A stretch of 64,000 nt of DNA from a bacterium (GTDB taxonomy: Bacteria; Orphanbacterota; Orphanbacteria; Orphanbacterales; Orphanbacteraceae), in contig JALGYY010000004.1 of assembly GCA_025782575.1 (NCBI GenBank), positions 124,001 through 188,000 of the forward strand, given 5' to 3'. A program made the position numbers and the translations under genes. The stretch's first letter is position 1; every line of letters starts with the position of its first letter. The notes under the pieces are model-generated. The model saw nothing but the letters and a program-made list of their open reading frames with translations, ran no database searches and was not told the origin of the DNA. Below are positions 40,311-64,000 of this stretch, one piece after another.

Positions 40311-40349
40311 GCTTCACCTCAAGCGCGGGTTTCGGCGCCGACCGACCCG

Positions 40350-42572
<2,223 letters not shown>

Positions 42573-42583
<11 letters not shown>

Positions 42584-44785: not shown

Positions 44786-44859
44786 CGGGACCCCCCTCAA
44801 TAACCCCCTCAAACTCAATCGATTAGAGCGGTGCTGCGCACACTGCTCCAAGATTTTTC

Positions 44860-44888
44860 AGTATAGGACAGCGTCCGGATTGGGGCAA
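44860..44888 (-). promoter_or_regulatory. Predicted sigma-70 promoter of the dnaN operon
   Basis: Minus strand TTGCCC (44883-44888), an exact 17-base spacer and TATACT (44860-44865). The leader is about 70 bases. No DnaA box is obvious around it. Confidence 0.65.
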
Positions 44889-45067
44889 GGGAAAAGAACC
44901 CCGGAGAGGGGCGTGTAAGCTGTTGGTTTTCGGTCGGTTAGGGGGGTGGGTTTTCCGGGGTTTCGGGGGGTGCGATCCGGGGTGGGCAGGCCGTGCGAAA
45001 GGCCCGATCCTCTGGACATTTCGCACGCCGGTTTGATAGCCTTTTCTTGATGCATAATCCTCCCGGA

Positions 45068-45826
45068 ATGGTCTCTCTACTACTCGTCTGGTCGGTTGCG
45101 CTCACCGCTGCGGGTGCGCCCGCTTCCGATACACCCGATTTCCAGGCAAGGCTCTCCGACGCACTCGAGACTGTCGAAACGCTGATCGAGGATTCTGACC
45201 GGGAGTCCGCGCTCGACCTCCTTTCCCCTCTTCTTCGGGAAGCTCGTGCCGCAGATGACAGGAGAGCCGAGAGCAGAATTCTCATAACGAGAGGGCGTCT
45301 GCAGATCGGTCGAGGCAGACCGCTTGAAGCAGAGCCTGATCTTGTTTCGGCAGTCGCACTCTCAGAGGCTCTCTCTGATTCGACTCTCCTCTGCGAGGGG
45401 CTCTACCAGCTTGGTTATGCCCACCGTCGCCTTGGCCGTTTTGAGAAATCGAGAAACGCGTTCGAACGCCTGATCCGCGTGGCGACTGCCTCCCGCGACT
45501 CAACTCATATTGCTCGCGGACTGCTGGGAACGACTTCGCCCCTGATCAACGCCGGCTCGCTCGACACGGCGCTTGTCCGTCTCGAAACGGCACTGGAGCT
45601 TTTCCAGCGCTTCCGCCTGGAGAAGGACGAGCTGAACGCCACCCACCTGCTCGGTCTTGTGAACGCCAACCGGGGAGAGAACGAAAAGGCAAAAAAATGG
45701 TGGGAGCAAACGCTCTCCAGATCGAGAGAGCTTGGCTCGCCCATGATGGAAGCGGGAAGCCTGTCGAATCTGGCGACGCTGGAAGCTCTTACCGGGATTC
45801 CTTCTCATGCAGCCGAATACTTATGA
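45068..45826 (+). CDS. N-terminal TPR part of a frameshifted periplasmic TPR-CHAT protease
   Basis: Signal peptide at the start (VSLLLVWSVALTAAG) followed by TPR-like repeats (RAESRILITRGRLQIGRG; LCEGLYQLGYAHRRLGRFEKSRNAFERLI; LNATHLLGLVNANRGENEKAKKWWEQTL). The frame ends at TGA 45824-45826 in the middle of a TPR. Deleting one T of ACTTATG (45821/45822) restores the repeat as ...AAEYYERAYAL and joins it to the next frame. So it is one gene of about 925 residues broken by a single-base insertion or a sequence error. ATG 45050 is an alternative start; neither has an SD, and a CATAAT box at 45055-45060 would give a leaderless message. Confidence 0.75.
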   Translation: MVSLLLVWSVALTAAGAPASDTPDFQARLSDALETVETLIEDSDRESALDLLSPLLREARAADDRRAESRILITRGRLQIGRGRPLEAEPDLVSAVALSEALSDSTLLCEGLYQLGYAHRRLGRFEKSRNAFERLIRVATASRDSTHIARGLLGTTSPLINAGSLDTALVRLETALELFQRFRLEKDELNATHLLGLVNANRGENEKAKKWWEQTLSRSRELGSPMMEAGSLSNLATLEALTGIPSHAAEYL

Positions 45827-47846: not shown

Positions 47847-48469
47847 TTCCCCCGGGATCTGATCGTCTAACGAAACAAGAGGGTGGTCAGGAGACACCGT
47901 CCGACGAAGAGCTCCTGGCAATAATGGCCCGTCCGGACTCGAAGGACGCCGGGGCGGCGGGGGAAGAGCTATTCGGGCGATACTCGAAACGCGTTTATCT
48001 CTGGTGTCTTCGCTATGTCAAGGATCACGATGCCGCGCTCGATCTCGCACAGGATTCGCTCATGAGTGCCTTTCGATCAATCGAGTCGTTCCAGGGCCGG
48101 TCACGATTCTCTTCGTGGCTCTTTGCGATCACCAGAAACCGATGTCTCTCGTCGCTCCGGCCTGTCTCTCTTTTGCGTGACGACGATCGCGATCCCGATT
48201 CGGTGGCATCGCCCGACGACCCTCCCCTCCAGCAGCTTACCGACTCGGAAAGCGAAGCTTCATTGCTGAAGCTCATTCGCACCACCCTGGAGCCGATCGA
48301 GCAGAAAGTCATCTGGTTCCGGTGTTTCGAAAAGATGCCCGTCGACCAGATCACGGGCATGCTCGCGATCGAGGGGGCGTCGGGAGCGCGGGGAATCATC
48401 CAGAGAGCAAGGCGAAAACTTCGTGCCGCCCTCAAGAAGAGACCGGCGAGCGAGGAGAACGAACAATGA
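47843..48469 (+). CDS. ECF (RpoE-like) RNA polymerase sigma factor
   Basis: 208 residues from GTG 47843, overlapping the CHAT stop as GTGA. Region 2: LFGRYSKRVYLWCLRYVKDHDAALDLAQDSL and AFRSIESFQGRSRFSSWLFAITRN (-10 recognition). Region 4: EPIEQKVIWFRCFEKMPVDQITGML followed by GASGARGIIQRARRKLRAAL. It should direct RNA polymerase to envelope-stress promoters and is likely held by the anti-sigma encoded immediately downstream. Target promoters are not identified; I found no clear GGAAC-type element before the module. Confidence 0.9.
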   Translation: MIPPGSDRLTKQEGGQETPSDEELLAIMARPDSKDAGAAGEELFGRYSKRVYLWCLRYVKDHDAALDLAQDSLMSAFRSIESFQGRSRFSSWLFAITRNRCLSSLRPVSLLRDDDRDPDSVASPDDPPLQQLTDSESEASLLKLIRTTLEPIEQKVIWFRCFEKMPVDQITGMLAIEGASGARGIIQRARRKLRAALKKRPASEENEQ

Positions 48470-49146
48470 GCAGACGAGTGTGTGTTCTGGCTGCAGAGAT
48501 CGGCGACATTCCGAATCTCCCGGACAACGACCCCAAAAGCGTTCACGTGCGAGAGTGTCCTCGTTGCCGCGCCCTCCTCGACTCCTACCTGGCGTTTATG
48601 AGCGGGGGAAACGAAGCGGACGCGGATCGCTTGGTTGAAGCGGAAAACGTTCTTCGCGACAGGATCGCCGCGGAGATCGCGCGAACCGGCGACGTCGGCG
48701 GCTCGCCGGTTCCTAAAAAGAGACGCCCTGAAACGCGAGGACTGAGAGGCGTCCGGCGCGCGTTGCTTGCCACGGCAGCCCTGCTTCTCGTCGCCGTTTT
48801 CCTATACAACATCAACGAAGGAGACGAACGGGAGATTCGCCTTCGCGGAGAACCGAAAACGTCCGAGCAGGAGTGGGGCTGGGGCGACAACCGTGTCGGG
48901 GCGGATGGTTCTCTTCTGCTATCCTGGGAGCCTCTGGCCTCCGCCGATGAGTACGCAATCGACCTCTACGACACGGACCTCGAACTGCTCCGTCGTTTCG
49001 GGCCCTACAAGAAGACCTCCGCAACAATTTCAAATGACGACATCGTCGCGCTCGGTTCGCCCCGGATTATCTTGCTTCGTGTCGTCGCCCGGCGCCGGGG
49101 TGATGATGTCAGCGTTTCTCCGACGTGGTCGGTCGCCCTTCCCTGA
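48466..49146 (+). CDS. Transmembrane zinc-finger (ZAS-type) anti-sigma factor
   Basis: 226 residues, ATGA overlap with the sigma gene. The N-terminal cytoplasmic part carries the ZAS signature H-x3-C-x2-C (H27, C31, C34), one membrane helix is at about 99-116, and the C-terminal 110 residues would be periplasmic and fibronectin-III-like (LLLSWEPLASADEYAIDLYD). Anti-sigmas of this form release the sigma after regulated proteolysis of the periplasmic or membrane part. The neighbouring periplasmic CHAT protease is therefore a natural candidate for the first cut; this is inference from context and topology. Confidence 0.8.
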   Translation: MSRRVCVLAAEIGDIPNLPDNDPKSVHVRECPRCRALLDSYLAFMSGGNEADADRLVEAENVLRDRIAAEIARTGDVGGSPVPKKRRPETRGLRGVRRALLATAALLLVAVFLYNINEGDEREIRLRGEPKTSEQEWGWGDNRVGADGSLLLSWEPLASADEYAIDLYDTDLELLRRFGPYKKTSATISNDDIVALGSPRIILLRVVARRRGDDVSVSPTWSVALP

Positions 49147-49488
49147 CTTTTTCGCCGCCGTCCGCAGACGTATGCGTTTTATCCGTCTACTTTCCTCCGA
49201 CAACCTGTCTAGGGCCGTTGAGGGGGCCCGTATCTCTCTACTTATTTTGATCTTTCAATAAATATTGCTTGACAGGTTTTCAGGCGCAGAATCTCGGTGA
49301 GCCGCGCTCCCTTGTACGCCGGCCGCAAGACGGGCTCTCCTCGTCTCGGATCGATTCAATCAACTCTTCCTGCCGAATCTCTCAAGTTCATTGCCGGTCC
49401 TTGGTGTAGCCCCTCTCCCGAAGCCGAAAAAGGGCATGCTAAAATATCAGCGGGGCTTGGAACGATAAGGGTGGATCGGGAGGGGAAG
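49147..49488 (+). other. 342-base gene-free stretch before the HNH gene
   Basis: Noticeably more AT-rich than its surroundings near 49240-49290 (TTTCAATAAATATTGCTTGACA). It contains an extended -10 element TGCTAAAAT (49437-49445) suitably placed before the HNH gene, but no good -35. I see no coding frame or RNA gene. Confidence 0.45.
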
Positions 49489-50658
49489 ATGGCGATGACG
49501 ACGACGAAAAAGATGGACTCGGTTCTGGCGACGTATTCCAATCATGAGATCATTCGAAAAGGGGATCGGGCGGTTCAGAGCCGACATGAACTCTCCATCG
49601 AGATTCTCGACTGTCTGGTCGAGATCGAGGGGCGATCGATATTTCTAAAGGAAGGGTACTCCTCGCTTTTCGATTACTGCACGCGGAGATGGCACTACTC
49701 ACCCCCTAAAGCGGGGCGGTTCATAGCGGCTGCCCGATGTATGAAGAGCTTTCCAGGTGTGCGGGATTTGCTTTTGCGGCGCAAGATTACACTCTGTGGC
49801 GTCTCCATGATCGCCGGAATCCTAACGGATGAGAACTCCGACAAGATCCTTCAGGAAGTTTCGGGAAAGAGATTCGTGGAGATCGAAAAGATCGTCGCCT
49901 CGCTGAAGATCGCTCCGAAGATCCGGGAGTCGATACGGCCGATCGGACTGCAGGAACCGGCGGGCGGGCGGGATCGAAGCGCCGATCACGAGGATCTCTT
50001 TCAGCCGAATCGAACACTTGGGAACTATCAAATTGATAGTGATTTTGTGGATGAACAGACGGATCAGCTGGGGGGCGACTCTCCAATCGATAACCATAAA
50101 ATGAAACTCGAACAGCGCTACGAAATTCGGTTCTCGGCGAGCGAAGAATTCTGCCGGGACCTGGAGCGGGCGAAGATGGTCTGCTCCCGTAGTTGGAATC
50201 TGGAAGCGATTCTGGGGAGAGCGATCAAGGACCTGCTGGAGAAGCGGGACCCCGAGCAGAAAGAGGCACGGCTGAAGAAGAGAGAAGCGAGGAAGCAGAG
50301 CAAGTCGGAGGGCCAGGCGCAGAGATTTGCGAAAAGCGGTTCCCCGGCCATACCGGCAACCGTGAGCGGCTCAGAAATGGCCGATGAGAAAGAGCCTCCA
50401 GGCAAGGGAGCAGAGGGGCTGCCCGTTCGTTCCCGACATATCCCGGCCCACTTGCGGGACGCGGTGTTCAACCGTGACAAAGGGCGCTGCACCTACACCA
50501 GTTCCCTCGACATCCAATGCGACTCGACCGCTCACCTGCAGATCGATCACATCACACCGTTCTGCCGGGGCGGGGGGCACTCCCTCGAGAATCTGCATCT
50601 CTTGTGCGGCAAGCACAACCGGTTGGCAGCGCGCGAAATGTCACTGACGAAGCGTTGA
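49489..50658 (+). CDS. HNH endonuclease family protein
   Basis: 389 residues from ATG 49489 (GGGAGGGG just upstream; ATG 49495 is also possible). The C-terminal 70 residues are an HNH domain: RHIPAHLRDAVFNRDKGRCTY, QIDHITPF, then ENLHLLCGKHNRLAA, which supplies the H-N-H residues; cysteines of the zinc site are visible (GRC, IQC, LLC). The N-terminal 150 residues form a helical, DUF222-like domain (KEGYSSLFDYCTRRWHYSPPKAGRFI) and are followed by a charged linker. Families of this design occur in many copies in some genomes and may be mobile. A link to restriction or defence is not shown. Confidence 0.82.
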   Translation: MAMTTTKKMDSVLATYSNHEIIRKGDRAVQSRHELSIEILDCLVEIEGRSIFLKEGYSSLFDYCTRRWHYSPPKAGRFIAAARCMKSFPGVRDLLLRRKITLCGVSMIAGILTDENSDKILQEVSGKRFVEIEKIVASLKIAPKIRESIRPIGLQEPAGGRDRSADHEDLFQPNRTLGNYQIDSDFVDEQTDQLGGDSPIDNHKMKLEQRYEIRFSASEEFCRDLERAKMVCSRSWNLEAILGRAIKDLLEKRDPEQKEARLKKREARKQSKSEGQAQRFAKSGSPAIPATVSGSEMADEKEPPGKGAEGLPVRSRHIPAHLRDAVFNRDKGRCTYTSSLDIQCDSTAHLQIDHITPFCRGGGHSLENLHLLCGKHNRLAAREMSLTKR

Positions 50659-50920
50659 GAAACGAATGATCAAGGCGCGGATCAGGAAAACGCATACGTC
50701 ACCGGACAAGTCCGATTTTTTTCGCCGACCTTGTGATTCTCCGCCCTTCTTCGTGTCTCACCTGTAGACGGCTAGGGCCGTTGCCGCTTGGGCGTCGCCG
50801 GGGTGGGCTTCGCCGGGGGTGTGCGGGCGGCCATCGTGCACGGCGTGACCGTTGCGTCGGCACTCGACGTGAGCCCCACCCTGAGCGGCGCCCTTACTAC
50901 AATCTAAAGGAGCTCAGACC

Positions 50921-51586
50921 ATGTCATTACGCATTAACGACGAAGCGCCTGATTTCACGGCCGAAACAACTCAAGGGAAGATCCGGTTTCACAAGTGGAT
51001 CGGCGACGGGTGGGCCGTGCTGTTTTCTCACCCGAAAGACTATACCCCGGTCTGCACGACCGAGCTCGGCTACATGGCCGGTATTGCGGGTGAATTCGCC
51101 AAACGAAACTGCAAGATCGTCGGCCTCAGCGTTGACCCCGTGGAAAGCCACAAAGGGTGGGCCAAAGATATCGAAGAGACACAAGGACACGCGTTGAACT
51201 ATCCGTTGATCGCCGACACGGACCTGGCCGTATCCAAGCGATACAACATGCTGCCTGCGGAAGAAGAGGGGTCCTCGGAGGGCCGGACCGCTGCGACGAA
51301 CGCGACCGTTCGGTCGGTCTTTGTCGTCGGGCCGGACAAAAAAATCAAGATGATGTTGACCTATCCCATGAGTTCGGGCCGTAACTTCAATGAGATCCTT
51401 CGGGTACTCGACTCCATGCAGATGACAGCCGCACACCAGGTGGCCACACCGGTTAACTGGGTGCCTGGCGAGGACGTCATCATCCTGCCATCGGTTAGTG
51501 ACGAGGAAGCCGGCAAGATGTTTCCGCGCGGCGGGGAGACGGTAAAACCCTACCTGCGCGTTGTTCCGCAGCCGAATTCAAAATAG
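50921..51586 (+). CDS. 1-Cys peroxiredoxin (Prx6 type)
   Basis: 221 residues, AAGGAG before the ATG. Peroxidatic cysteine C45 in HPKDYTPVCTTELG, with the upstream Thr of the PxxxTxxC motif; the long C-terminal arm (NWVPGEDVIILPSVSDEEA) is typical of the Prx6/1-Cys class. No resolving cysteine is visible in the C-terminal arm. It reduces hydrogen peroxide or lipid peroxides in the cytoplasm with an external thiol donor, possibly the thioredoxin at 29.6 kb. Upstream is a 262-base gap (50659-50920) in which I see nothing definite. Confidence 0.95.
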   Translation: MSLRINDEAPDFTAETTQGKIRFHKWIGDGWAVLFSHPKDYTPVCTTELGYMAGIAGEFAKRNCKIVGLSVDPVESHKGWAKDIEETQGHALNYPLIADTDLAVSKRYNMLPAEEEGSSEGRTAATNATVRSVFVVGPDKKIKMMLTYPMSSGRNFNEILRVLDSMQMTAAHQVATPVNWVPGEDVIILPSVSDEEAGKMFPRGGETVKPYLRVVPQPNSK

Positions 51587-51637
51587 CGGCGCATCGCTCT
51601 GATTCCGGGAAGACACACAAACCGAGAGGAGAGGCCC

Positions 51638-52261
51638 ATGCCTAATTACACACGTCGACTCGCTGCGATGTCACTCGCCTCCATGCTCGCCTTCCTGGGC
51701 TGGTGCGTGCCCGCAGAGGCAGTTCGCTACAACACGTCAACCCCACCGGCACGGTCGAATTTAGCGTGGTCCGGGGTATTCGCGTCTACCCCGCAGGGGG
51801 GAATCATTCCCCACGGTTCCGTGGTGAGTGCGATGGACGACCTCGGGCAGATCTACGTCGCCGGCACATTTGACCTTCCCGGCGTCGGTCCGATTCGGGT
51901 TGCCTGGTGGGACGGAAGCCACTGGGAGATTATCGGAAACCGTGTCGTCAAAAGTGGCGCCATCGAGTCCCACGTGTCAGCGATCGCTGTGGACGGTGCG
52001 GGCAATATCTATGTTGGTGGATTGTTCACCGACGCCTACCACGATGACGGTTCGTTCGTCTCCTCCCGGAATATCGTCAGGTGGAATGCGGTCGCACTGC
52101 AATGGGAGTCAATCGGAGAGGGGACCGACGGGTGGGTGAGAGATATCGCCGCGCTTCCGAATGGCGACCTTTATGTGGCCGGCGATTTCTCTGTCGTTTT
52201 TAACCCGGGGGGCGGTGCGGTCTCAGCTCCCCACATCGCCAGGTGGGATTCGGGATTATAG
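51638..52261 (+). CDS. N-terminal part of a large secreted propeller protein, ended by an in-frame amber codon
   Basis: 207 residues with SD GAGAGGAG, a signal peptide (about 1-28) and two to three beta-propeller-like repeats with the recurring I-Y-V-G/A-G-x-F strand (QIYVAGTFDL; NIYVGGLFTD; DLYVAGDFS). It ends at TAG 52259-52261. Translation in the same frame continues directly with QWEPVGGGTDG, which matches the repeat in the first part (QWESIGEGTDG), so the amber interrupts one gene of 1,219 codons. A single C-to-T change (CAG to TAG) explains it. Confidence 0.75.
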   Translation: MPNYTRRLAAMSLASMLAFLGWCVPAEAVRYNTSTPPARSNLAWSGVFASTPQGGIIPHGSVVSAMDDLGQIYVAGTFDLPGVGPIRVAWWDGSHWEIIGNRVVKSGAIESHVSAIAVDGAGNIYVGGLFTDAYHDDGSFVSSRNIVRWNAVALQWESIGEGTDGWVRDIAALPNGDLYVAGDFSVVFNPGGGAVSAPHIARWDSGL

Positions 52262-52306
52262 CAATGGGAGCCGGTCGGCGGCGGTACCGATGGCAATTGT
52301 GATCAG

Positions 52307-55297
52307 GTGGCGGTCGACAGCCTCGGCCGGATCATAGTGGCCGGTAGGTTTTCGAATGGGGACGACGGGTCGGGCAATCTGATTCCGTGCTCTTCTGTCG
52401 CACTCTGGAACGGGACGACGTGGATACCATTCGGCGCCGGACTTTCATTCGTCAGCCGGTACAGCGAGTTGCTCGTAACGGCGTCGGGGGACATCCTCGT
52501 GGCTGGAAGCTCCGTCGTGTCGGCCGGCGCCTCCCCGCTTTCCAACGGGGCGCTACTCTGGAACGGTTCCTCCTGGGTTCTTCCCGGCATCGTTCCTCCC
52601 TCCAGCGATATCGCGATGGACGGCGCCGGAAATCTATACAGTGTTACCCCGCCGCAATCGGTGTACCGGATCACGCCCATCGCTCCGGAACAAATCGCCG
52701 TAGCGAGTGGCGGCGAAGCGCCCGTGACGATCGCGGCCAACGAGGCGATTGCCACAACTCACGCCTATTTGGGCGGTCTTTTCTCCTCCCTGGAGCATGG
52801 CGGAAACGTATACCAGATCACGAACGACGCCATGTGGGACGGGAATACGTGGAGCGCTCTTCGCGGTGTTGGCGGAGCGAACGGCCGGATCTACGCGGTC
52901 GGCGACGACGACAGGGAATGGGGCGCGGCGACCGCTTTTGCCGTGGGCGGCGCATTCACCAGGATCGGGGGAGTCAGCTCGATGAACGTCGCGCTGTTTG
53001 AGGGAGATGGCTGGATCCCCCTCGGCGGCGGCGTGAACGACACCGTGTTCGCGACTGCACTCGAAACGTTCCGCTTGCCGGCTGATGTCTATGTCGGGGG
53101 CTGCTTCCTGTCGGCGAACAACCCTGACGGCACCGTCCTTTCTGTTTCGAACGTGGCGCGCTTTGAGCGTTTCTCGAACCAATGGGAAGGCCTGGGTGGC
53201 GGCGTGAACGGGAAAGTTCGTGCATTGCACTTCGTCCAGGGGCCGGGGCTCGGGTTCCCTGACTATCTCTACGTTGGCGGCGAGTTCACCGAGGCGGTGC
53301 AGACAAACGGCGACACGCTCTCCGCTACAGGGCTCGTTCTCTGGAACAGTGTGAGCGAGGAGTGGGAGGCGGTGGGTGACGTGAACGGCGGAACCGCCAC
53401 TGTCTACGACATCTCGTCCGGTTTCCTCTTTGCAGACCCCACCCTTTTTATCGGAGGAAACTTCCTCGGCGTGTCCGGCTCAGGTGGAGCGATCGACGTC
53501 AGAAATGTGGCGAGAATGCATCTCGACAACCTCACCTGGTCCGCGCTTGGGGAGGGTGTCGACAACACGGCATACACGGTCAGTCCCTACTCGAGGAATC
53601 CGGCGGTTGTCGTTGTGGGCGGCGAATTCCTGAACGCCATCGATGCCGGTGGCGGTCTCGTCCCGGCAAACTATGCCGCCTGGTGGACACCGGACCAATG
53701 GACTCCGGTAGCTGGCGGCTTTGATGCGCCCGTTCGCTCAATTGCCCTGGGTAAGGTTTTCGGCGGCGACTTCACGACGATTTTTCCCCCGTCCGGCCCA
53801 CCGGTCACAGCAAACCACACCGCATTGGGAGAGTGGCCGTCCTTCGATCTCGAGGCGCTCGGGACCGGCACGAACGGTCCGGCGCACAGCGTGCTCGGCG
53901 TTATCCCGTGTTTCTACTGGCTTGGTGAAACCGCATACTTCGGCGGCGACTTCACTCTGGCCGGAGGTGGTCTCGCCACGGGGGTCGCGAAATGGCAGTA
54001 CCACTACACCCCGCCCGGCCCGAACGTGGTGATCGGATCAGGAACCCCCTGTGGCGCCGGTTGCTCCGGCGGGGCAGTGCAGCTCAACTGCGATGTACTC
54101 GAGAAGCGGCAGAATACCGCGCCTGCATTCCAGAATCTGGGATTTCGTGACGCCGGAATCGCAGAGGGCCTCCCACTGGATACCCTTTTCTCGATCGACC
54201 TGACCGAATCGGGGAGCGGGCTCCCCGTGGCGACGTTCGACAGCCTTCGTCTCGGCCGGGGCCGGGATCATTCAATCGTTCTGATCGGCCTGGACGATCC
54301 CTCTTCGTACGCGCCGAACCCGGAAGGAGTTCCCACCGATTTTTCCATGGTAGTCACAGAGGGAGGCGCTTCCGGGTCCGCCTTCACTGGTGATGTCCGG
54401 GTGGTCTTCGTGCATGGGGTGACCGACGCGCCGCCACTCGACATCAGTTCTTCTCTGAGTGGCGCGCTCTTGACCGGTTTCGGGTATGGTGCGGCGAGCG
54501 ATGTCGTGATGCTTTCTCCCGAGGTGCATCACCTTGATCTCCTCGGGAGCTCAGACGGAATCTCCCGAGGAACGCATGACATCAATCTTGTCGGTCTCGA
54601 GGATCGCTTCGTGACGATACTCTTGTCGGGATTCGACGACCCCGCCTCGAATGGTGGAGGGTCGCCGATCGGCGCAAACGGGTATGCGGAAGGGAAAGAT
54701 GTTTCGGCCGATAACGACGGCGACGGAGTGCGGGACATTTTCGATGCGTGTCCGGCGTCGGAAACGGCCGCCAATTTGACTGTGCGCGGATGTGAAAGCG
54801 GTGTGTCGAACCGCGTCCTCGCGAGCGGCTGTACGTTCGCGGATGAGATTGCGGTCTGCGACGCAGCATCAGCAGATCTCCGCGGGTTCTCGGCCTGCGT
54901 CCTTTCCCTTCTCGCGGATTGGCGCCAATCGGGCAATCTTTCCGGGCCCGAACGACTCGCGATCAGCCGGTGTCTGAGGATATCCGTTCGTTTAAAGGGT
55001 TCTGGGGCGGACCGCTCGCTGAACGCGCTCGCCCTTCGGGTCAACTCGAACCCCGTACGGAACACCGCCTCGTTCGCCATAACTGTTCCGGCTTCCTCTT
55101 CTGCAACGCTCGAGGTCTTTTCCCCGAGCGGCCGCCGGGTCAGGAGTTTCCCCGTGCCCGCTATCGGGCCGAATGGCGCCGACTATGCGTGGGACCTCTT
55201 GGACCGTTCCGGCCGGCGCATCACGAGCGGTGTCTACTTTGTTCGTCTCGCAACAGAGAGAAACGCGATCGTAAGAAAGGTAATTGTGGTGGAGTGA
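52307..55297 (+). CDS. C-terminal part of the propeller protein with TSP3-like repeat and FlgD/T9SS-type C-terminal domain
   Basis: In the same frame as the 51,638 fragment. GTG 52307 is the first possible start after the amber but has no ribosome-binding site. It contains many more IYVGGxF-like blades (to about residue 560), a globular region, a calcium-type thrombospondin-3-like repeat (DNDGDGVRDIFDACP, about residue 801) and a final 80-residue Ig-like domain (NPVRNTASFAITVP, LDRSGRRITSGVYFVRL) of the FlgD/Por-secretion type, used as an outer-membrane export or attachment signal in FCB-group relatives. Extracellular function is unknown. Whether the protein is still made depends on readthrough. 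Confidence 0.75.
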   Translation: MAVDSLGRIIVAGRFSNGDDGSGNLIPCSSVALWNGTTWIPFGAGLSFVSRYSELLVTASGDILVAGSSVVSAGASPLSNGALLWNGSSWVLPGIVPPSSDIAMDGAGNLYSVTPPQSVYRITPIAPEQIAVASGGEAPVTIAANEAIATTHAYLGGLFSSLEHGGNVYQITNDAMWDGNTWSALRGVGGANGRIYAVGDDDREWGAATAFAVGGAFTRIGGVSSMNVALFEGDGWIPLGGGVNDTVFATALETFRLPADVYVGGCFLSANNPDGTVLSVSNVARFERFSNQWEGLGGGVNGKVRALHFVQGPGLGFPDYLYVGGEFTEAVQTNGDTLSATGLVLWNSVSEEWEAVGDVNGGTATVYDISSGFLFADPTLFIGGNFLGVSGSGGAIDVRNVARMHLDNLTWSALGEGVDNTAYTVSPYSRNPAVVVVGGEFLNAIDAGGGLVPANYAAWWTPDQWTPVAGGFDAPVRSIALGKVFGGDFTTIFPPSGPPVTANHTALGEWPSFDLEALGTGTNGPAHSVLGVIPCFYWLGETAYFGGDFTLAGGGLATGVAKWQYHYTPPGPNVVIGSGTPCGAGCSGGAVQLNCDVLEKRQNTAPAFQNLGFRDAGIAEGLPLDTLFSIDLTESGSGLPVATFDSLRLGRGRDHSIVLIGLDDPSSYAPNPEGVPTDFSMVVTEGGASGSAFTGDVRVVFVHGVTDAPPLDISSSLSGALLTGFGYGAASDVVMLSPEVHHLDLLGSSDGISRGTHDINLVGLEDRFVTILLSGFDDPASNGGGSPIGANGYAEGKDVSADNDGDGVRDIFDACPASETAANLTVRGCESGVSNRVLASGCTFADEIAVCDAASADLRGFSACVLSLLADWRQSGNLSGPERLAISRCLRISVRLKGSGADRSLNALALRVNSNPVRNTASFAITVPASSSATLEVFSPSGRRVRSFPVPAIGPNGADYAWDLLDRSGRRITSGVYFVRLATERNAIVRKVIVVE

Positions 55298-55380
55298 GTG
55301 GGCGTGCAGCAGATCCCCAGAACCGGTCAAACAACATTTTTAAAGATCAAAACCAAGTTCAATTGGGTAGAGCCAACCCG

Positions 55381-56505
55381 CTAGAAGTGAACGGACGACT
55401 GGACCTTGATGGAGTATTCCGTTTCCTCGCTGTCCGCCTCGGGAATGAACACGTCTACGTTAAAGGCGACTTTGTTTCTCCCGACGAAGAAGAACTGCAC
55501 GCCAGGCGTAACGAGGAACCCTCCATCGTCCTCGATCTCGTCGTTCGGGTCGGCGTAGCTCACCCGCAGGATCGGTTCCACCGCCTCCACGTAGCTGTTT
55601 CCGTCGACCGGTATTTTGTAGGTGCCGATCACCTGGGCGGCTACGAACGTCGGAAGATCGGCGCCATGAACTGCCGAATCCCAGTTCTCCCCCCACAGCA
55701 CGCCGGCCTGCACATGGGGACCGCTCTTGAAATTCCCGTATTCCAGATCGGCCTGAACCGCCACCGCATACTCTACTTCCGGATTCAGGTCGTCGCCGAC
55801 CACCTTGGCAGCCGCCAGGGGAAGCGCATCCGGCTTCATCCCGCCGGCCACCGCGATAACGAAATCCGTGTCGGCCATGGGGCGAAGCGTCGCCCGGCCT
55901 GTGTATTGTTTTTCGCCGACCACGTCATCTCCATCTTTTCGTGCGACCGAAGGAATGACATTGGCGCCGGTGCCGTTCGTGACCGCGGCCGTGAGCGACA
56001 CCGATTTCGCGTCGTTCTGCAGCTTCACTTCCAGGCCGATGTCCCTGTCGGAGAACCCGAGCTTCTCCGTGAGCGAAGAGAGCGAGCGCTTTCCGCCCAC
56101 CCCGCGCACTTTCAGCGCCCGCTCTACCACCAGAATCTTCGTCGACGACGTCAGCTCGAAGATGTCGAACGGCCGCTTGAACTGCCCGAGCCGGAACGAA
56201 ACGTTCGGGCCGTAGACCAGTTTCATATAGGCGTCCTTGAGCGTGATCTTACCCTTGCCGAAATCCGGCTGTACTTTCCCGAATACGAAATCGTTCATCT
56301 GAATATCGAAGCTCAGCCTCGCCCGGCGTATCAAGAAATCCGAGCCGAGTTCCCCATCAACCGAGCTCGTGTTGAACTGGGTATGAACCCGGCCGGACAG
56401 GTTGAGCTTGACCGCTTTTGTCGTAACTTCCGTCGCTTCGCCGCTCGTTGCCAACACAACAAGGAGGGCAAGCGCCCCCCCGAAACAGGCCGATATCTTG
56501 TTCAT
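55381..56505 (-). CDS. Phosphate-selective porin (OprP/OprO-like)
   Basis: 374 residues: signal peptide (about 1-24), the porin O/P pattern FLIRRARLSFDIQ and FGKVQPDFGKGKITLKDAYMKL, RLGQFKRPFDI, and a C-terminal phenylalanine (SSVHF). It is a predicted outer-membrane channel for phosphate. The ATG overlaps the phoU stop by 4 bases, so it belongs to the pst-phoU transcript and completes the route from the outer membrane to PstS. It is convergent with the propeller gene; only 83 bases separate them. Confidence 0.85.
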   Translation of the reverse strand: MNKISACFGGALALLVVLATSGEATEVTTKAVKLNLSGRVHTQFNTSSVDGELGSDFLIRRARLSFDIQMNDFVFGKVQPDFGKGKITLKDAYMKLVYGPNVSFRLGQFKRPFDIFELTSSTKILVVERALKVRGVGGKRSLSSLTEKLGFSDRDIGLEVKLQNDAKSVSLTAAVTNGTGANVIPSVARKDGDDVVGEKQYTGRATLRPMADTDFVIAVAGGMKPDALPLAAAKVVGDDLNPEVEYAVAVQADLEYGNFKSGPHVQAGVLWGENWDSAVHGADLPTFVAAQVIGTYKIPVDGNSYVEAVEPILRVSYADPNDEIEDDGGFLVTPGVQFFFVGRNKVAFNVDVFIPEADSEETEYSIKVQSSVHF

Positions 56506-57176
56506 TCGTCGTCTCCTTCCGCCTCTTCAAATCTGTGTCGGACCACTTTTCCGGTCACCATGAATATGACGTCTTCGGCAATGTTCGTCGTCAGGTCGGC
56601 GATTCGTTCCAGGTGTCGGGACGCGGACAGATAATGACTCGCCCGCTTTATCGCCCTGTCGTCCTTCATCGTCTTCCGGAGCACCTTGTACATTTGCCCG
56701 TGAGCGTCGTCGATGTCGTCGTCTTTTTTGAGCACCTTGACGGCCAGGCTCGTGTCCTGGTTGATCAGGGCGTGCAGACTGTCCTGTACCATCTCGTGTA
56801 CGTCGTCGGCCATCCCGGCAAAATCGAACGGCACAGGGAGCGTCTCGTGTTTCGCCAGGTAGAGTGCTCTTTTTGCAATGTTCGCCGCCAGGTCGCCCAT
56901 CCGCTCCAGGTCGTTGTTCACTTTGAGCGCCGCCACGAGGAAGCGAAGGTCGCCGGCCACCGGCTGGTGGAGTGCCAGTATCTTGAGACAATCCTCTTCC
57001 AGCTCGACCTCGAGCCGGTCGATCTCCTGGTCTCCCGCGATGACCTCCTCCGCCAGTTCAGCCCGCCTGTCAACCAGGGCGCGAATGGCCGTGCCGATCG
57101 CTTCTTCCACCAGGCCGCTCAGCCCGAGAAGGCCCTTCTTCAAATGATCCAAGTCTCTTTGCAGATGAAGCGTCAT
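56502..57176 (-). CDS. phoU: Phosphate-signalling regulator PhoU
   Basis: 224 residues with two repeated three-helix bundles; metal-site patterns ADLAANIAKRALYLA and ADLTTNIAEDVIFMV are present in each half. PhoU links PstSCAB transport to PhoR and keeps the regulon off when phosphate is plentiful. It follows pstB by 10 bases. Confidence 0.95.
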   Translation of the reverse strand: MTLHLQRDLDHLKKGLLGLSGLVEEAIGTAIRALVDRRAELAEEVIAGDQEIDRLEVELEEDCLKILALHQPVAGDLRFLVAALKVNNDLERMGDLAANIAKRALYLAKHETLPVPFDFAGMADDVHEMVQDSLHALINQDTSLAVKVLKKDDDIDDAHGQMYKVLRKTMKDDRAIKRASHYLSASRHLERIADLTTNIAEDVIFMVTGKVVRHRFEEAEGDDE

Positions 57177-57186
57177 CTCGTCTCTC

Positions 57187-57939
57187 CTATCCGAATCGGC
57201 CGGTGACGTATTCTTCGGTGCGCTTCACCTTGGGCCGAGTGAACACCTGCTGGGTTTCGCCATATTCGACAAGAACCCCCGCTTCGAAAAACGCCGTGTA
57301 GTCCGATACTCTCGCCGCCTGCTGCATATTGTGAGTCACGATTACGATGGTGTATTTCTTCTTGAGCTCGAACAGAAGATTCTCGATGTGCGCGGTCGAC
57401 ACCGGATCAAGCGCGGAGCAGGGCTCGTCCATCAGTATCACTTCCGGCTCCATTGCGAGTGTGCGCGCAATACAAAGGCGCTGCTGCTGCCCGCCCGATA
57501 GTCCGAGTGCAGACGAACCGAGCCGGTCCTTCACCTCGTCCCAGAGGGCGGCTTTCTTGAGCGCCCCCTCCAGTCTCTCTCTCGGATCGCCCTCATAGCC
57601 GTTGATCGCGGGCCCCCATGAGACGTTTCGTTCAATGCTCTTCGGGAAAGGGTTCGGCTTTTGAAAAACCATGCCGATCCGGCGGCGCACTTCTACGGGG
57701 TCGATCCCTTTGTCGTAAATATCCGTCCCGCGAAAGAGTATCTCGCCGTCCATACTCGAAGAAGGGATGAACTCGTTCATACGATTGAACGCTCGGAGGA
57801 GCGTGCTCTTGCCGCACCCCGAAGGCCCGATGATCGCCGTTACCCGGTTTTCCGGGATCACGAGAGTCGCTTCCCGGACCGCGGGAGCTTCCCCGTATCG
57901 AATCGTGACGTTTCGGGCTTCCATGATCGACGTCATCAT
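57187..57939 (-). CDS. pstB: Phosphate ABC transporter ATPase PstB
   Basis: 250 residues. Walker [10 protein letters not shown] (39-47), Q-loop [12 protein letters not shown] (specific for PstB), signature [16 protein letters not shown], Walker [14 protein letters not shown] and H-loop THN. It powers import through PstC/PstA. Start overlaps the pstA stop by 4 bases. Confidence 0.97.
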
Positions 57940-58817
57940 CCGCCTCTCCTCTCTGCCCGGTGTCGAATGAGAATGGCTCCAGTGTTCATGACGAGAAGGA
58001 CGATCAGGAGAACGAGAATGCCGGCTGCGCCGAGAGCGTGGAAGTCCTTCTGGGGGCGCGAAGTCCAGTTAAAGACCTGGATCGGCAGGGTGGTGAATGC
58101 ATCGAGCGGCCCTTCCGGCACGAACGCGACATAGGTGAGCGCCCCGATCATGACGAGTGGGGCCGTCTCGCCGATCGCCCGGGACAGGGCGAGGATCACG
58201 CCGGTCATGATGCCGGGGAGGGCCGAGGGGAGAACGTGATGGCGCACAGTCTGCCACCGCGTTGAGCCGAGTGCGTATGAGGCCTGGCGAAGCGAGCCGG
58301 GCACGGCCCGGATCGCCTCTCGTGCGGCGATGATGATCACGGGTAGAATCAACAGGCTCATGGTGAGCGCGCCGGCCAGAACGCTCCGGCCAAGCAGGAA
58401 GAACCTCACGAAAATGACAAGGCCGAGCATGCCGTAAACAATTGATGGTACGCCGGCGAGGTTCGCGATGTTGATCTGGATGAAAGTGCTGAGCGCTCCT
58501 CGCCTGGCGTATTCCTCGAGATAGATCGCCGCGCCGACCCCGAGAGGAACGGCAATAATAGCGGTCGTGCTGATCATCCAGAGTGTGCCGAATAGGGCGG
58601 ACTTGATGCCGGCCTGATCAGGAAAACGAGAGGGGAAGCTCGAAAGAAACTGCCAGTCGAGCCAGGACATCCCCTGGCGGGCGACGTGCACGAGGAGCGC
58701 GACCAGTATCAGGACCGCCGCCCAGGTCATGGCAGCGCAGGCAAAGCGGAAAACGGCAAGTGCCCGGCGCCGGGCGGGTAGATTGTTCGCGGAATGATGC
58801 CGACCAAGCCCGGTCAT
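57936..58817 (-). CDS. pstA: Phosphate ABC transporter permease PstA
   Basis: 293 residues with six membrane helices. The EAA loop contacting PstB is [25 protein letters not shown], and the segment [20 protein letters not shown] is typical of Pst permeases. It overlaps the pstC stop by 4 bases. Confidence 0.96.
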
Positions 58818-59716
58818 TCGTATACCTCCTGGAACCGGCGAAGAACCTGGTGGGAAAGAATATTCATTCCCAAAGTGATTATGAAGAGGAGCGCGCCCAC
58901 AGCAAAAATCGTCTGATATTCCACGGTGCCGGCGGGCGTATCACCAAGGCTCACCTGCACAATATAGGCGGTCATCGTCTGGATACTCTCCAGCGGATTT
59001 GCCGTGATATTGGGCGTTGCTCCGGCCGCGAGCGTCACTGCCATCGTTTCGCCGATGGCGCGCGACATGGCGAGCACGAACGAAGCGAGGACGCCCGACA
59101 GGGCGGCCGGCAGAACCACTCGGCCGGTCACTTCGAACGAAGTCGCCCCGAGGGCGTGCGCCCCTTCGCGGAGCGAGTTCGGGACGGCGCGGAGCGCGTC
59201 GTCACAGAGCGATGCGACCATGGGAAGAATCATGATGCCGACCACGATTGACGCGCTCGCCGCATTGAAGACCTGCGTTTCGGGAAAGACCGCTCTGATG
59301 ATCGGTGTAACAAAGGTGAGCGCAAAATATCCATAGACCACGGTCGGGATCCCGGCGAGGACCTCAAGAACGGGCTTGATGATGTTTCGAACCCGATCGG
59401 AGGCGTATTCACTCAGGTAAATGGCGCTTCCAAGCCCGAGTGGAATGGCGATCAGGCTCGAACCCACCACGATCATCATGGTGCCGCAGACGAGCGGAAG
59501 AATACCGAACGACCGGGGTACGAGAAGGGGTCTCCATTCCGTGCCGAACAGAAAGGACGGCAGGGAAACCACCTCAAAAAACGCGAACGTCTCCCGGGCG
59601 AGAACCCCGACAATTCCAGCCGTGGTCACCACGGAGAGGGCGGCGCAGGTGAAAAGAACGACCTTGACGGCCTCCTCTTTCCAGTGCCTTCCCCGCTTTC
59701 TCTTGAGCTCTTCCAC
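58814..59716 (-). CDS. pstC: Phosphate ABC transporter permease PstC
   Basis: 300 residues from a GTG at 59714-59716, with GGAGGAG 6 bases upstream. A longer frame to 59902 would overlap most of the pstS 3' end and is rejected. Six membrane helices; EAA loop [26 protein letters not shown] and the [16 protein letters not shown] segment are intact. It lies 25 bases after the pstS stop. Confidence 0.95.
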
Positions 59717-59741
59717 CCTGAACTCCTCCGCCTGCCGAGAC

Positions 59742-60740
59742 CTACATACCCAGGTCGAACATCTGCTCCAGCGTCTTGCCCGCTTGCTTTCCGTCTGCGT
59801 AGACAGTGCCGGCAACACCTTTTTCGAAGCGCGCGAGCGCAAGTGCATAGACCGCATCCGGTAGCGGGACATAGCCCACCTCGCTGACAAGAACCGGCGC
59901 ATTCTTCAGGTAGAATCGAATGAACTCGCGGACCTCGGGCCGGCCGGCCGCTTCTGTCGTCACATAGATGAAAATCGGGCGGGCGAGGGGGGCGTAAGTG
60001 CCGTCGTTGATGCTGGAAGAAGAGGGTGCGATCGGCCCGCTTCCACCGTCTATCGGAATGAGCTTCAGCTTGTCTTTGTTCTCCACATAGTAAGCAAAGC
60101 CGAAGAAGCCGAGAGAGTGCACATCACCTGCGATGCCCTGGACGAGAACGTTGTCGTCCTCGCTCGCTGTGAAATCGTGCCGGCAGGACTGCGATTCGCC
60201 GTTGATCGTCTCGGTGAAGTAGTCAAATGTTCCCGAGTCAATTCCAGGGCCGTAGAGCGCGATGGGCTGGTCGGGCCATTCGTTCCGGACGTCTTTCCAG
60301 CTCTTTACCGTACTCCCGGGTTGCCAGATTCTTGTCAGTTCCTCGACCGTAAGGAGGTCGACAAATGCGTTAGTCTTGTGGGTCACAATGGAGATGCCGT
60401 CAAAAGCGACAGGCAACTCGATGTATTCCACGTTATTCTCTTTCGCCTTTTTGTTTTCTACCTGTTTGATCGGCCGGGAGGCGTCATTGATATCCGTTTC
60501 TCCTATGCAGAACTTTTTGAATCCGCCGCCTGTTCCCGAAATACCCACCGTAACCCGGCAACGGGGGTGAACCTTCTGAAACTCTTCCGCAACCGCCTCA
60601 GTGATCGGGAAGACCGTGCTCGACCCGTCGATTCTAATCGTCCCCTTGAGCTCTGACCCGTTCTCATTCGCGCCATTCCCGCCGCACCCGAACAGGACAA
60701 GAGCGCTGAGCACCAATACTGTTTTCGTTGTTCGTCTCAT
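59742..60740 (-). CDS. pstS: Phosphate-binding lipoprotein PstS
   Basis: 332 residues from the ATG at 60738-60740 (AGGAGG upstream). Lipobox LFGC (about residue 19), then the phosphate-binding pattern [32 protein letters not shown], and SGTFDYFTE. The predicted promoter overlaps an 11-bp-phased repeat (60775-60816), consistent with PhoB control. Confidence 0.96.
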
Positions 60741-60774
60741 GATTGGGAGACCTCCTTTCTCTTTCTTACCGGGC

Positions 60775-60816
60775 AAGATACGAAACGAATATTAGGAGGG
60801 TATTAAGAGGGTATTA
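60775..60816 (-). promoter_or_regulatory. Pho-box-like repeat and -10 element of pstS
   Basis: On the plus strand ATTAGGAGGGT (60791-60801) and ATTAAGAGGGT (60802-60812) form an 11-bp direct repeat, followed by a third half, ATTAATTTT. A -10 hexamer (TATCTT on the minus strand, 60775-60780) lies 10 bp away, the spacing seen for PhoB-activated promoters. No -35 hexamer is present. Confidence 0.55.
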
Positions 60817-62601
60817 ATTTTCGCCCCGAGGCGGCATACGGAATAAAAATCGACTTCCCCTGCCCGGCGCGCTCTCTACAGAGACGCTTCCTCCGTGGGA
60901 AAGGGCGATGTGCTTTACAATCGCCAGGCCGAGCCCTGTGCCGCCCAGGTCTCGCGAACGGGCCTTATCTACCCGGTAGAACCGTTCGAATATTCTCGTC
61001 CGGTGGGCTGGATTAATGCCGATCCCGGTATCTTCCACTTCGACAAAGGCGTCACCTTCCTGGTGGAAAACGCTCACTTTCACCTTTCCCTCTTCCGGCG
61101 TGTATTGAATGGCGTTTCCGAGCAGATTGTCGATCAGTTGCCGTAACTCGTCCCGATTGGCGAAGACCTCCACGGGCTTTTCCCGCCTGACGATTACGAG
61201 TTCGATATTCTTGGATATCGCAGCGGGGCGGAATTCATCCACACTCTCATCAAGGAGCGTGCAAAGGTCGACCGGCTCTCGATAGGACTCGTCGTGGCCT
61301 GATTCAAGGCGGGAAATCGTAAGCAAATCGCCGACGAGCGAAGTAAGTCGATGGGACTGATTCTTTACCTTGTTCAGAAAGCCGTTACGCGCCTCCGGTT
61401 CCATCTCTTCATGGTCCAGGACCGTTTCAACCAGCCCTCGTATAGCTGTAATCGGCGTTTTCAACTCATGAGATACGTTGGCCACAAAATCGCTCCGAAT
61501 CGCCTCCAATTGTCTCAGGTCGGTCAGGTCGTGAAGCACCAGCACGGCACCGCCGGTTTCCAGCGGGGTCGCGTGCATTTCCACAATCTGGTCCTTCCCG
61601 TCTCGAGCAATTCTGATTTCCTCTTTCAGTTTCTGCCCGTCCAGCATGGCTCTCCGGATAATTTTGTTCACGGCCTGAAGCCGGACGACCTCCCATATTC
61701 GTTTTCCATCGGAACTTTTGTCGTGAACGTCATTGTCTTTGAGGGTCACTCGTAGAATCCTGCCGGCCGCGTCATTCATATGGAGGATGCGCTCCTCTTC
61801 GTCAACAGCAACGACCCCTTCCGCCATTCCCATGAGAATAGCGAGAAGCTTGTTTTTCTCTTTCGCGGAATCGGAAATGCGGGTTTCTATGCTGGCGGAC
61901 ATTCGGTTGAATGAGCGGGCCAGATCGCCGACTTCATCATTTCCGCCGTGAGGCACCCGCCCCTGACCCTCCCCCTTTGCTATCAACAAGGCTTCCCGGC
62001 TGATCACATTGAGAGGCTTCACGACACGGTAAGAGAGAAGAAGCCCCATAAGGAGCCCCACCAGCGCCGCGAGCCCGGCCATAGTAAATATTGTCGTCCG
62101 AAGACGAACCAACTCAGCATCAACAGCGCTGGTAATAATGGAAGCTCGGACATAACCGAGGAGTTTCCCTGCCCGTTTCACGGGAATGGCGTGATACATG
62201 GTGTTTCGGTTGGCAGTACTGCTGAAGCGCGTGGCGGTTCCCAGCCCTCGATCCCGTGCGTCAAGAATCTCGGGTCGGCGCCCATGATTTTCCATCGTAG
62301 CCGGATCGTTTTCCGAATCGGCTATCACCAGGCCGTCGCTTCTCACTACGGTCAGGCGAGTTTCCAGCGATCTTCCCAGAATCTGGATTCGTTTCTGAAA
62401 GAGAGGATCATCAGCCCCCGTCAGAGGGAGAGCGGCTATGTCGTTCAGCAAGACTACTTTGGCGTGAAGCGATTCCTCTATCCGGCGAAGCGTGTCGACC
62501 CTTACCCGGCTACTGAAGAGAAGCCCGGAGATCGCGGTCGAAGCAAGAATGACCGCGACGTAGCCGATAAAAATCTTGCGCAGGAATCTGGAGTTCAGCA
62601 C
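60814..62601 (-). CDS. phoR: PhoR-type sensor histidine kinase
   Basis: 595 residues from a GTG at 62599-62601 (GGGAG upstream); a longer frame to 62757 is possible but adds a tail with no domain. TM1 10-30, extracytoplasmic sensor 31-168, TM2 170-190, HAMP 191-244, PAS 253-363, H378 in VSHELKTPI, then N-, G1-type DTGIGI and [12 protein letters not shown] boxes. It phosphorylates PhoB under phosphate starvation. No response regulator lies beside it; the next features upstream are the replication origin and dnaA, so the partner must be encoded elsewhere. It precedes pstS by 73 bases. Confidence 0.88.
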   Translation of the reverse strand: MLNSRFLRKIFIGYVAVILASTAISGLLFSSRVRVDTLRRIEESLHAKVVLLNDIAALPLTGADDPLFQKRIQILGRSLETRLTVVRSDGLVIADSENDPATMENHGRRPEILDARDRGLGTATRFSSTANRNTMYHAIPVKRAGKLLGYVRASIITSAVDAELVRLRTTIFTMAGLAALVGLLMGLLLSYRVVKPLNVISREALLIAKGEGQGRVPHGGNDEVGDLARSFNRMSASIETRISDSAKEKNKLLAILMGMAEGVVAVDEEERILHMNDAAGRILRVTLKDNDVHDKSSDGKRIWEVVRLQAVNKIIRRAMLDGQKLKEEIRIARDGKDQIVEMHATPLETGGAVLVLHDLTDLRQLEAIRSDFVANVSHELKTPITAIRGLVETVLDHEEMEPEARNGFLNKVKNQSHRLTSLVGDLLTISRLESGHDESYREPVDLCTLLDESVDEFRPAAISKNIELVIVRREKPVEVFANRDELRQLIDNLLGNAIQYTPEEGKVKVSVFHQEGDAFVEVEDTGIGINPAHRTRIFERFYRVDKARSRDLGGTGLGLAIVKHIALSHGGSVSVESAPGRGSRFLFRMPPRGEN

Positions 62602-62835
62602 GCTTTTCTCCCGGTCTGCCGACCTCGGGCGCCTCTCTTGATTGTAAGGATTCGAGACAACAAAAAGAACCCCGGAAGCGGATTCTTCCAGGAAGCCCGC
62701 CCCGGGGTAAAGGAATCGCAGTCTCGTTTGAAAGCACCGCCCGTCCAGTTTCGGCACTCATCAAACACGATGGGTCCGTTGGCTGCGATTGCCTCTTGAC
62801 TCATTCATACGGACAGTTTGTTTGCCTCTTTCCGG

Positions 62836-63073
62836 ATTCTTTCTTCTTCTTCTTAAAGAGATTTAAAAAAAGAGTAGTAGTAGTAGGGGCTGCGGATATG
62901 TTGACAAGCAGGCCACACGTTAGATTGGTTGCGGGATTACAGTCTTTGGGAGATGGGAAGTTATGTCGGGTCATGTGGACGGTTTTCTAATAACTCTGGA
63001 GTTGTTCACAGGGCGGTGTTTGTCGACAATCGGTCCACAGGCGTATCCCGGTTTTCTGCACAGATTATTCACA
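62836..63073. other. Predicted replication origin (oriC) with DnaA boxes and DnaA-trio
   Basis: DnaA boxes on the plus strand: TTATTCACA (63065-63073, full match to TTATNCACA), TTCTGCACA (63054-63062) and TTGTTCACA (63002-63010), one mismatch each; weaker TTGTCGACAA (63020-63029). On the minus strand TTGTCAACA (62899-62907) is followed by a GC-rich spacer (62887-62898), four TAG trios (62875-62886) and an AT-rich tract (62836-62871). This order of box, GC spacer, trio and AT tract is that of the bacterial basal unwinding system. It lies just downstream of dnaA, as in Bacillus. Confidence 0.8.
62875..62886 (+). repeat. DnaA-trio element, (TAG)4
   Basis: Four perfect TAG repeats between the GC-rich spacer and the AT-rich tract; read away from the DnaA box the strand is 3'-GAT-GAT-GAT-GAT, the motif bound by DnaA on single-stranded DNA. 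Confidence 0.7.
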
Positions 63074-63090
63074 TGGCGAAGGTGGGTGGT

Positions 63091-63317
63091 TCAGCCGACT
63101 TGCCCCGGGCCAGAAATTTCTCGAAGGAGAATGAGCGAGACGAGGCCGGTGGGACCCGAAGAAGCGAAACATAGAAAACGGACGGGGTTAATCAGACCCC
63201 GCCCGTTTTCATGTGGAGATGCTTCGGGCCGGCCGAGCGAGTGAGGCGAGGGGCGACGGTCAGGAGCCCCGGAGCCGGCTCCTTCGAGAGCTTTCTGGCC
63301 CGGGGCAAGCCGGCTGA
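63091..63317. repeat. 227-bp imperfect palindrome with 39-bp arms between oriC and dnaA
   Basis: The arm 63091-63129 and the reverse complement of 63279-63317 agree at 36 of 39 positions. Inside them GGCCGG and CCCGAAG blocks are also repeated in inverted order, and the centre is the hairpin at 63174-63210. The right half carries about 40 extra bases (63235-63278). No reading frame is conserved in either half. Confidence 0.85.
63174..63210. terminator. Bidirectional terminator-like hairpin downstream of dnaA
   Basis: GAAAACGG-A-CGGGGT / ACCCCG-C-CCGTTTTC, a 15-bp stem with one mismatch and a 7-base loop, with an A-run on one side and a T-run on the other, so it could stop transcription from both directions. 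It is the centre of the larger palindrome. Confidence 0.75.
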
Positions 63318-63369
63318 GCCGGACTATTTTGGGTTTTGGTGTTGCAATAGGCTGCGCGCTCGGTCCCTT

Positions 63370-64000
63370 CTACGCTGCGAGCTCATCCGCAAGGCGATCC
63401 AGAATCGACCGGAAGCGGTCGTCCGCGATGGAAAGTCTCTCCACCTTCTGGCACGCGTGCAGAACGGTTGAATGGTCCCGGCCGCCGAACTTGAGACCGA
63501 TCTGGCTGAGCGAGAGGCCGGCCAGTTGCCGAGTGAAGTACATCGCCACCTGACGGGCGAGGGCGATATCCGCCGTGCGCCTCCTCGACAGAATCTCGTC
63601 GACCGACACATCGTAATGTCCGGCGGTTACCCGGATGATGTCACGCACGGTGGCCTTGTTCGTTCTCCGCGAGAGAAAGTCCTTGAGTACGTCTCTTGCG
63701 AGATCGACGGAGAGATCCTGACCCGTAAGTGAGGAAAAGGCGAGGAGCCGGATGAGCGAGCCTTCGAGCTGACGAATATTCGAGCGAATCGATCGAGCGA
63801 TGAAGAGCAGAACATCGTCCGGGATAGAGAGATTTTCGAGCTCGGCCTTCTTCCTGAGAATGGCAATTCTGGTTTCGAGATCGGGCGAGCCGACGTCTGC
63901 GACCAGACCCCATTCAAATCGGGATATGAGGCGCTCCTCCAGGTTGGCGATTTCCTTCGGCGGGCGATCACTGGTAAGCACGATCTGCTTTTTGGCATTC
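63370..64000 (-). CDS. dnaA: Chromosomal replication initiator DnaA, 5' end beyond the window
   Basis: About 210 C-terminal residues are visible; the frame stays open to the right edge. The AAA+ end includes ANLEERLISRFEWGL (sensor II/box VIII region) and RSNIRQLEGSLIRLLAF; domain IV carries the DNA-binding signature LARQVAMYFTRQL...GGRDHSTVLHAC. DnaA melts the origin at 62.8-63.1 kb. The gene reads toward the origin and toward the dnaN operon on the same strand. Confidence 0.97.
   Translation of the reverse strand, partial: NAKKQIVLTSDRPPKEIANLEERLISRFEWGLVADVGSPDLETRIAILRKKAELENLSIPDDVLLFIARSIRSNIRQLEGSLIRLLAFSSLTGQDLSVDLARDVLKDFLSRRTNKATVRDIIRVTAGHYDVSVDEILSRRRTADIALARQVAMYFTRQLAGLSLSQIGLKFGGRDHSTVLHACQKVERLSIADDRFRSILDRLADELAA

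Follow-up and report, generated by a model that had tools for sequence, protein, structure and literature searches.

The DNA 3' of dnaA carries an element that is very probably the half in which a bipartite, BUS-type chromosome origin is unwound, as judged from its sequence, its conservation, the surrounding gene order and the GC skew. It lies between the dnaA stop codon and a phoR-like kinase gene, within the window, the stretch of 64,000 nucleotides that was analysed (G000:C17:124001-188000, part of a 231,768-bp contig). The element is confirmed as a BUS-family origin in a further lineage, of a kind that is already known, widespread and ordinary.

Architecture of the unwinding element

Read on the minus strand, the element runs TTGTCAACA-TATCCGCAGCCC-CTACTACTACTAC-TCTTTTTTTAAATCTCTTTAAGAAGAAGAAGAA. 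The preliminary description had placed a box, a GC-rich 12-mer, four TAG trios and a 36-base AT tract in this order, and the arrangement was confirmed at the following positions.

62899-62907, minus strand: BUS DnaA box 1, TTGTCAACA, two mismatches to TTATCCACA
62891-62899, minus strand: BUS DnaA box 2, ATATCCGCA, weak, two mismatches, overlapping box 1 by 1 nt
62887-62890: G+C spacer, GCCC on the minus strand, separating box 2 from the first trio
62875-62886, plus strand: four DnaA-trios, TAGTAGTAGTAG, reading 3'-GAT-5' away from the boxes
62838-62873: A+T-rich DNA unwinding tract, 36 bp, 78% A+T

The 12 nt from box 1 to the trios (TATCCGCAGCCC, minus strand) retain the length first ascribed to them but not the composition. 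Judged by its sequence, this 12-mer is better split into a putative second DnaA box, ATATCCGCA, and a 4-nt GCCC. The BUS box rule, as worded in the available text of PMC8287927, places a DnaA box with at most two mismatches no more than 16 nt from the trios. Here, box 1 stands at 12 nt and box 2 at 4 nt, each with two mismatches. A BUS also has at least three consecutive NAN trios opposite the box strand, represented here by four GAT trios, and an adjacent A+T-rich unwinding tract, represented by 62838-62873.

The trio core CTACTACTAC occurs at a single place in the contig, in two overlapping registers, against 0.025 occurrences expected per contig in a first-order simulation (40 simulations). 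Three CT[AT]x4 arrays are present in the contig, and only the BUS array has a box with at most two mismatches within 16 nt. Seven DnaA boxes with at most two mismatches fall in the 238-bp interval that holds the element and its distal boxes; among the 973 contig bins of 238 bp, a single one, directly upstream of dnaA, reaches this number. No Rfam match was found across window positions 62500-63600.

A trio-like array facing the TAG array

On the box strand, past the A+T tract, AAGAAGAAGAAGAA is also trio-like (3'-GAA-5').

62841-62854, plus strand TTCTTCTTCTTCTT, minus strand AAGAAGAAGAAGAA: trio-like array oriented toward the TAG array from the other strand, function uncertain

Unwinding could be two-sided, with the opposite-strand array AAGAAGAAGAAG across the A+T tract allowing DnaA to engage the two strands so that helicase is loaded in both directions, a reading that we consider unlikely. 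In its favor, a reverse array score of at least 6 is found in four of seven members of the family (f1) against 0.36 expected (maximum 2 in 500 shuffles). Genus g24 gives 15 of 18 loci against 2.76 expected (maximum 7), these counts covering 18 of 19 loci (L199 is missing), and the discovery set gives 17 of 79, compared with 3.66 in shuffles and one in a forward-strand control. Members of the organism's own family are among the 79 discovery loci; G004 was omitted because its contig breaks off no more than 60 nt from the array. Additionally, TAGTAATAGCAGTAG-like facing arrays are kept in genus g24. However, this genus was picked because one member showed the array, and its sister families yield only 1 of 11. 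The thresholds were set after the discovery data had been seen, while the replicate was specified in advance. The replicate comprised 99 fresh loci from across the domain, 97 with a usable 3' region and 28 with a usable forward BUS; facing arrays were found in 2 of these 28 against 2.0 expected, and the generality of such arrays across the domain was dropped. Given this sample and the sister families, the facing array is at most a lineage-specific elaboration. The tract might alternatively serve as a purine-rich leader or form a hairpin, and no convincing partner box for the facing array was found in the organism's own genome.

It is doubtful that members of this family, and separately at least one unrelated genus, have a two-sided origin, in which DnaA filaments on two arrays facing each other across a short A+T core would hold the two strands and direct the loading of both helicases, with no need for a DnaD-like strand reader. 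A literature search of titles and abstract openings found no report of facing trio arrays. In genus g24 (L138, L179-L198), opposite-strand facing arrays surround an A+T core, CTACTACTACGACTACTAT ... ATAGTAATAGCAGTAG, in 18 aligned species.

Origin halves, GC skew and gene order around dnaA

Further DnaA boxes lie between the BUS and dnaA.

63002-63010, plus strand: distal DnaA box TTGTTCACA, two mismatches
63020-63029 (starts 63020/63021), both strands: palindromic weak DnaA box TTGTCGACA, two mismatches
63054-63062, plus strand: distal DnaA box TTCTGCACA, two mismatches
63065-63073, plus strand: distal DnaA box TTATTCACA, one mismatch

The three boxes on the other strand that had been called better are indeed present, but by mismatch count only one of them is superior to the BUS box. 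Among the contig bins examined, the best boxes lie outside the window, upstream of dnaA, in a strong cluster at C17:188842-189188. Box clusters with boxes of at most one mismatch occur upstream of dnaA in all seven family members. Since the strongest boxes are upstream of dnaA, the origin is bipartite and flanks the gene, as in B. subtilis and H. pylori.

The upstream cluster might instead be the working origin and the 3' element a relic or an accessory, as the presence there of the contig's best boxes, including a perfect TTATCCACA at C17:188939, could suggest. Several observations make this very unlikely. A simple array pattern gave no trio-like array upstream of dnaA in the seven family members, and the best strict BUS is upstream of dnaA in only one of 43 loci elsewhere. 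The skew minimum of G003 falls within 28 bp of the 3' element. Moreover, the unwinding element belongs to the 3' half in B. subtilis and H. pylori, according to the available text of PMC8235120.

The GC skew, put forward in the preliminary description as a check on the element, changes sign at or near the BUS in three of three contigs examined. Skew was drawn per contig, the organism's own assembly consisting of 49 contigs. In G003, the cumulative minimum (29,345) and the trios (29,317) are 28 bp apart; in G002, the minimum (164,687) is 4.8 kb from the BUS (159,855). The minimum of the organism's own contig (171,368; -2514) is near dnaN, 15.5 kb from the BUS, where the cumulative skew is -2497, a difference of 17 that is within noise. 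An origin adjoining dnaN, where this minimum falls, was considered and rejected, given the small skew difference and the lack of a top box bin there.

Genes around the element are arranged as follows.

C17:187370-188821, minus strand: dnaA, whole gene, ORF of 483 aa
63370-64000, minus strand: dnaA, 3' part in the window (PF08299, PF00308)
60814-62757 (start uncertain), minus strand: phoR-like histidine kinase adjoining the BUS in the place of dnaN (HisKA, HATPase_c, HAMP)
43670-44851 (start probably 44785 or nearby), minus strand: dnaN (PF00712, E 1.8e-25, C17:168429-168785)
42302-42562, minus strand: dciA-type helicase-loader domain between recF and gyrB (PF05258, E 3.0e-20)
37830-43673, minus strand: recF, gyrB and gyrA ORFs after dnaN, with dciA among them

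The 3' end of dnaA matches Pfam Bac_DnaA_C (E 3.8e-28). The gyrA and gyrB genes were named from translations, and recF also by tblastn to relatives. ORFs for yidC, jag, mnmE, mnmG and rsmG, likewise named from translations, are on the other side of dnaA. A dnaA gene with a yidC-jag-mnmE-mnmG run and dnaN-recF-dciA-gyrB-gyrA form the classic origin gene order, and both the yidC-jag-mnmE-mnmG side and the dnaN-recF-dciA-gyrB-gyrA side are found here. The dnaN gene had been described as being elsewhere. It is separated from dnaA, but by only 18 kb, in the same window and in the same orientation, and it is still accompanied by recF, dciA, gyrB and gyrA, all in one orientation.

The BUS adjoins dnaN in three of the seven phylum genomes (G001, G003, and G006). 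The distance is about 6.5 kb in G002 and G005 and about 18 kb in the organism's own genome, these values covering six genomes, as the contig of G004 ends before dnaN. In every genome where the two genes are apart, the BUS is beside dnaA, which upholds the earlier proposal that dnaA kept the origin once the pair was divided. Most simply, dnaA-oriC-dnaN was the ancestral order, and insertions later separated oriC from dnaN.

The stretch of about 18 kb between dnaN and the origin (window 44852-62757) contains TPR/CHAT-like, sigma-like, peroxiredoxin-like and large secreted ORFs. It ends toward the BUS with a pst/phoU/phoR cluster. The genes of this stretch were named from translations, except phoR, which was assigned by Pfam.

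A dispersed repeat is located between dnaA and the origin boxes (window 63088-63320, core 63125-63283). It has 26 matches in its own genome and none in the other six phylum genomes. The core of about 160 bp is alike in six long copies; the inverted-repeat arms (about 30-40 bp) vary by locus yet match each other. The median arm score is 44 for own-locus arms and 17 for arms swapped between loci, in a comparison of 19 of 24 attempted rows, one copy being duplicated in at least two of the 19. The repeat resembles an element that either inserts into palindromes or creates them.

Conservation, known systems and a proposed mechanism

The phylum comparison set consists of seven genomes from one family, the organism's own and G001-G006. 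In all seven, a DnaA-box-like pair, a CTAC-type trio array and, beyond it, an A+T or purine-rich tract are found 3' of dnaA. The box pair, the trios and the upstream boxes are kept at near-fixed distances throughout the set. Relative to the trios, the first box stands at -21 in the organism's own genome, G001, G003, G004, and G006; in G002 and G005, which belong to one genus, it stands at -24. A distal box is found at -123/-124 (the TTGTTCACA site) in the same five genomes that have the first box at -21, and at -174 to -176 (the TTCTGCACA site) in G003, G004, and G006; other-strand distal boxes are also present at -196/-197 in a subset of the seven. The organism's own boxes 1 and 2, with two mismatches each, are weaker than those of several relatives, and the first box of G006, CCGTCCACA, has three mismatches. 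The box pair, the trios and the distal boxes are kept in seven of seven phylum members, a conservation that the preliminary description had named as a way to check the element.

The triplets vary among the relatives (CTA, CTT, CTC, CGA) while the array pattern is constant, which favors selection over slippage. Although repeats of TAG and TTC are simple in sequence, a chance trinucleotide repeat (microsatellite) in the intergenic spacer is extremely improbable, with position, spacing and triplet pattern kept in all seven genomes though the flanks diverge and the triplets vary, and with a chance expectation for the core of 0.025 per contig.

The likeness to the organization in Bacillus that had been proposed for this DNA holds at the level of geometry. 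The 12-nt box-to-trio gap is common to most sampled Firmicutes loci, and named Firmicutes loci such as Planococcus L059, TTATCCACATATTCACAGGCC-CTACTACTATTATTACTT, have the same succession of box, box, spacer and trios, in L059 with a 1-nt overlap within the box pair TTATCCACATATTCACAGGCC. Among 108 loci, 43 have a strict BUS (score of at least 9), which is 3' of dnaA and in its orientation in 42 of the 43 and elsewhere in one. With a looser score, 28 forward and 4 reverse-strand regions pass among 97 fresh loci. The position 3' of dnaA is therefore the common one. In L028 (G054), the region 3' of dnaA is near-symmetric, with a forward box, a 12-nt spacer and trios, and with a reverse box, TTCTCCACA, a 12-nt spacer and TAGTAG.

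In the available text of PMC8287927, potential BUS sequences are reported for 1755 of 2070 origins, so that a BUS in a Gram-negative bacterium is unsurprising; Gram-negative examples tested in vitro are also described there. The incC/BUS of B. subtilis oriC likewise consists of tandem boxes, a short G+C spacer, CTA-type trios and an A+T tract (available text of PMC6669920 and PMC8287927). B. subtilis oriC also shares the distal boxes, the second box cluster upstream of dnaA and, in the ancestral gene order, a BUS flanked by dnaA and dnaN. In contrast to B. subtilis, the boxes here are more degenerate, dnaN is 18 kb away and DciA is present. At the place of the GCCC spacer, B. subtilis has GGCC (available text of PMC8235120). 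H. pylori oriC1-dnaA-oriC2 resembles the present origin in that the organism is Gram-negative, the origin halves flank dnaA and the trios are in the oriC2 half. It differs in its box motif, TYATTCACN against the TTATCCACA-like boxes here, and belongs to an unrelated phylum (same source, available part).

A mechanism can be inferred by analogy with Bacillus and Helicobacter. In Bacillus, DnaA on the box pair gives rise to a filament that extends along the trios and captures bases of one strand, and distal boxes work through looping (available text of PMC6669920 and PMC10721633). Here, DnaA would bind the minus-strand box pair (62891-62907), pass to the adjacent plus-strand TAG trios and polymerize on the single-stranded trios toward lower coordinates. 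The filament would then melt the A+T tract (62838-62873), where the replicative helicase would be loaded, probably with DciA. The distal boxes (63002-63073) and the strong upstream cluster may raise the local DnaA concentration via looping. The origin would have been kept with dnaA as about 18 kb of other genes came between it and dnaN.

The residues at B. subtilis DnaA positions I190, K222, E223, and R264 are identical in the organism's own DnaA and in five aligned relatives (without G003), the alignment having been made via the Bacillus sp. DnaA of L072, with B. subtilis numbering assumed from its 446-aa length. In B. subtilis DnaA, I190, K222, and R264 comprise the single-strand binding residues and the arginine finger. 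Over the full DnaA protein, the closest match in a scan of genome contigs, which may omit near records, was at 49% (Latescibacterota), with one partial match at 52%. DciA is found in six of the seven phylum members, the miss being G005, an 82%-complete genome.

If the facing array is functional, placement of the second helicase would become testable in DciA bacteria. In genomes where dnaA and dnaN have been split, inheritance of the origin follows dnaA rather than dnaN. With its seven genomes examined, the phylum joins the lineages in which the Bacillus unwinding module is matched at the nucleotide level, and this match supports a BUS 3' of dnaA as the ancestral arrangement.
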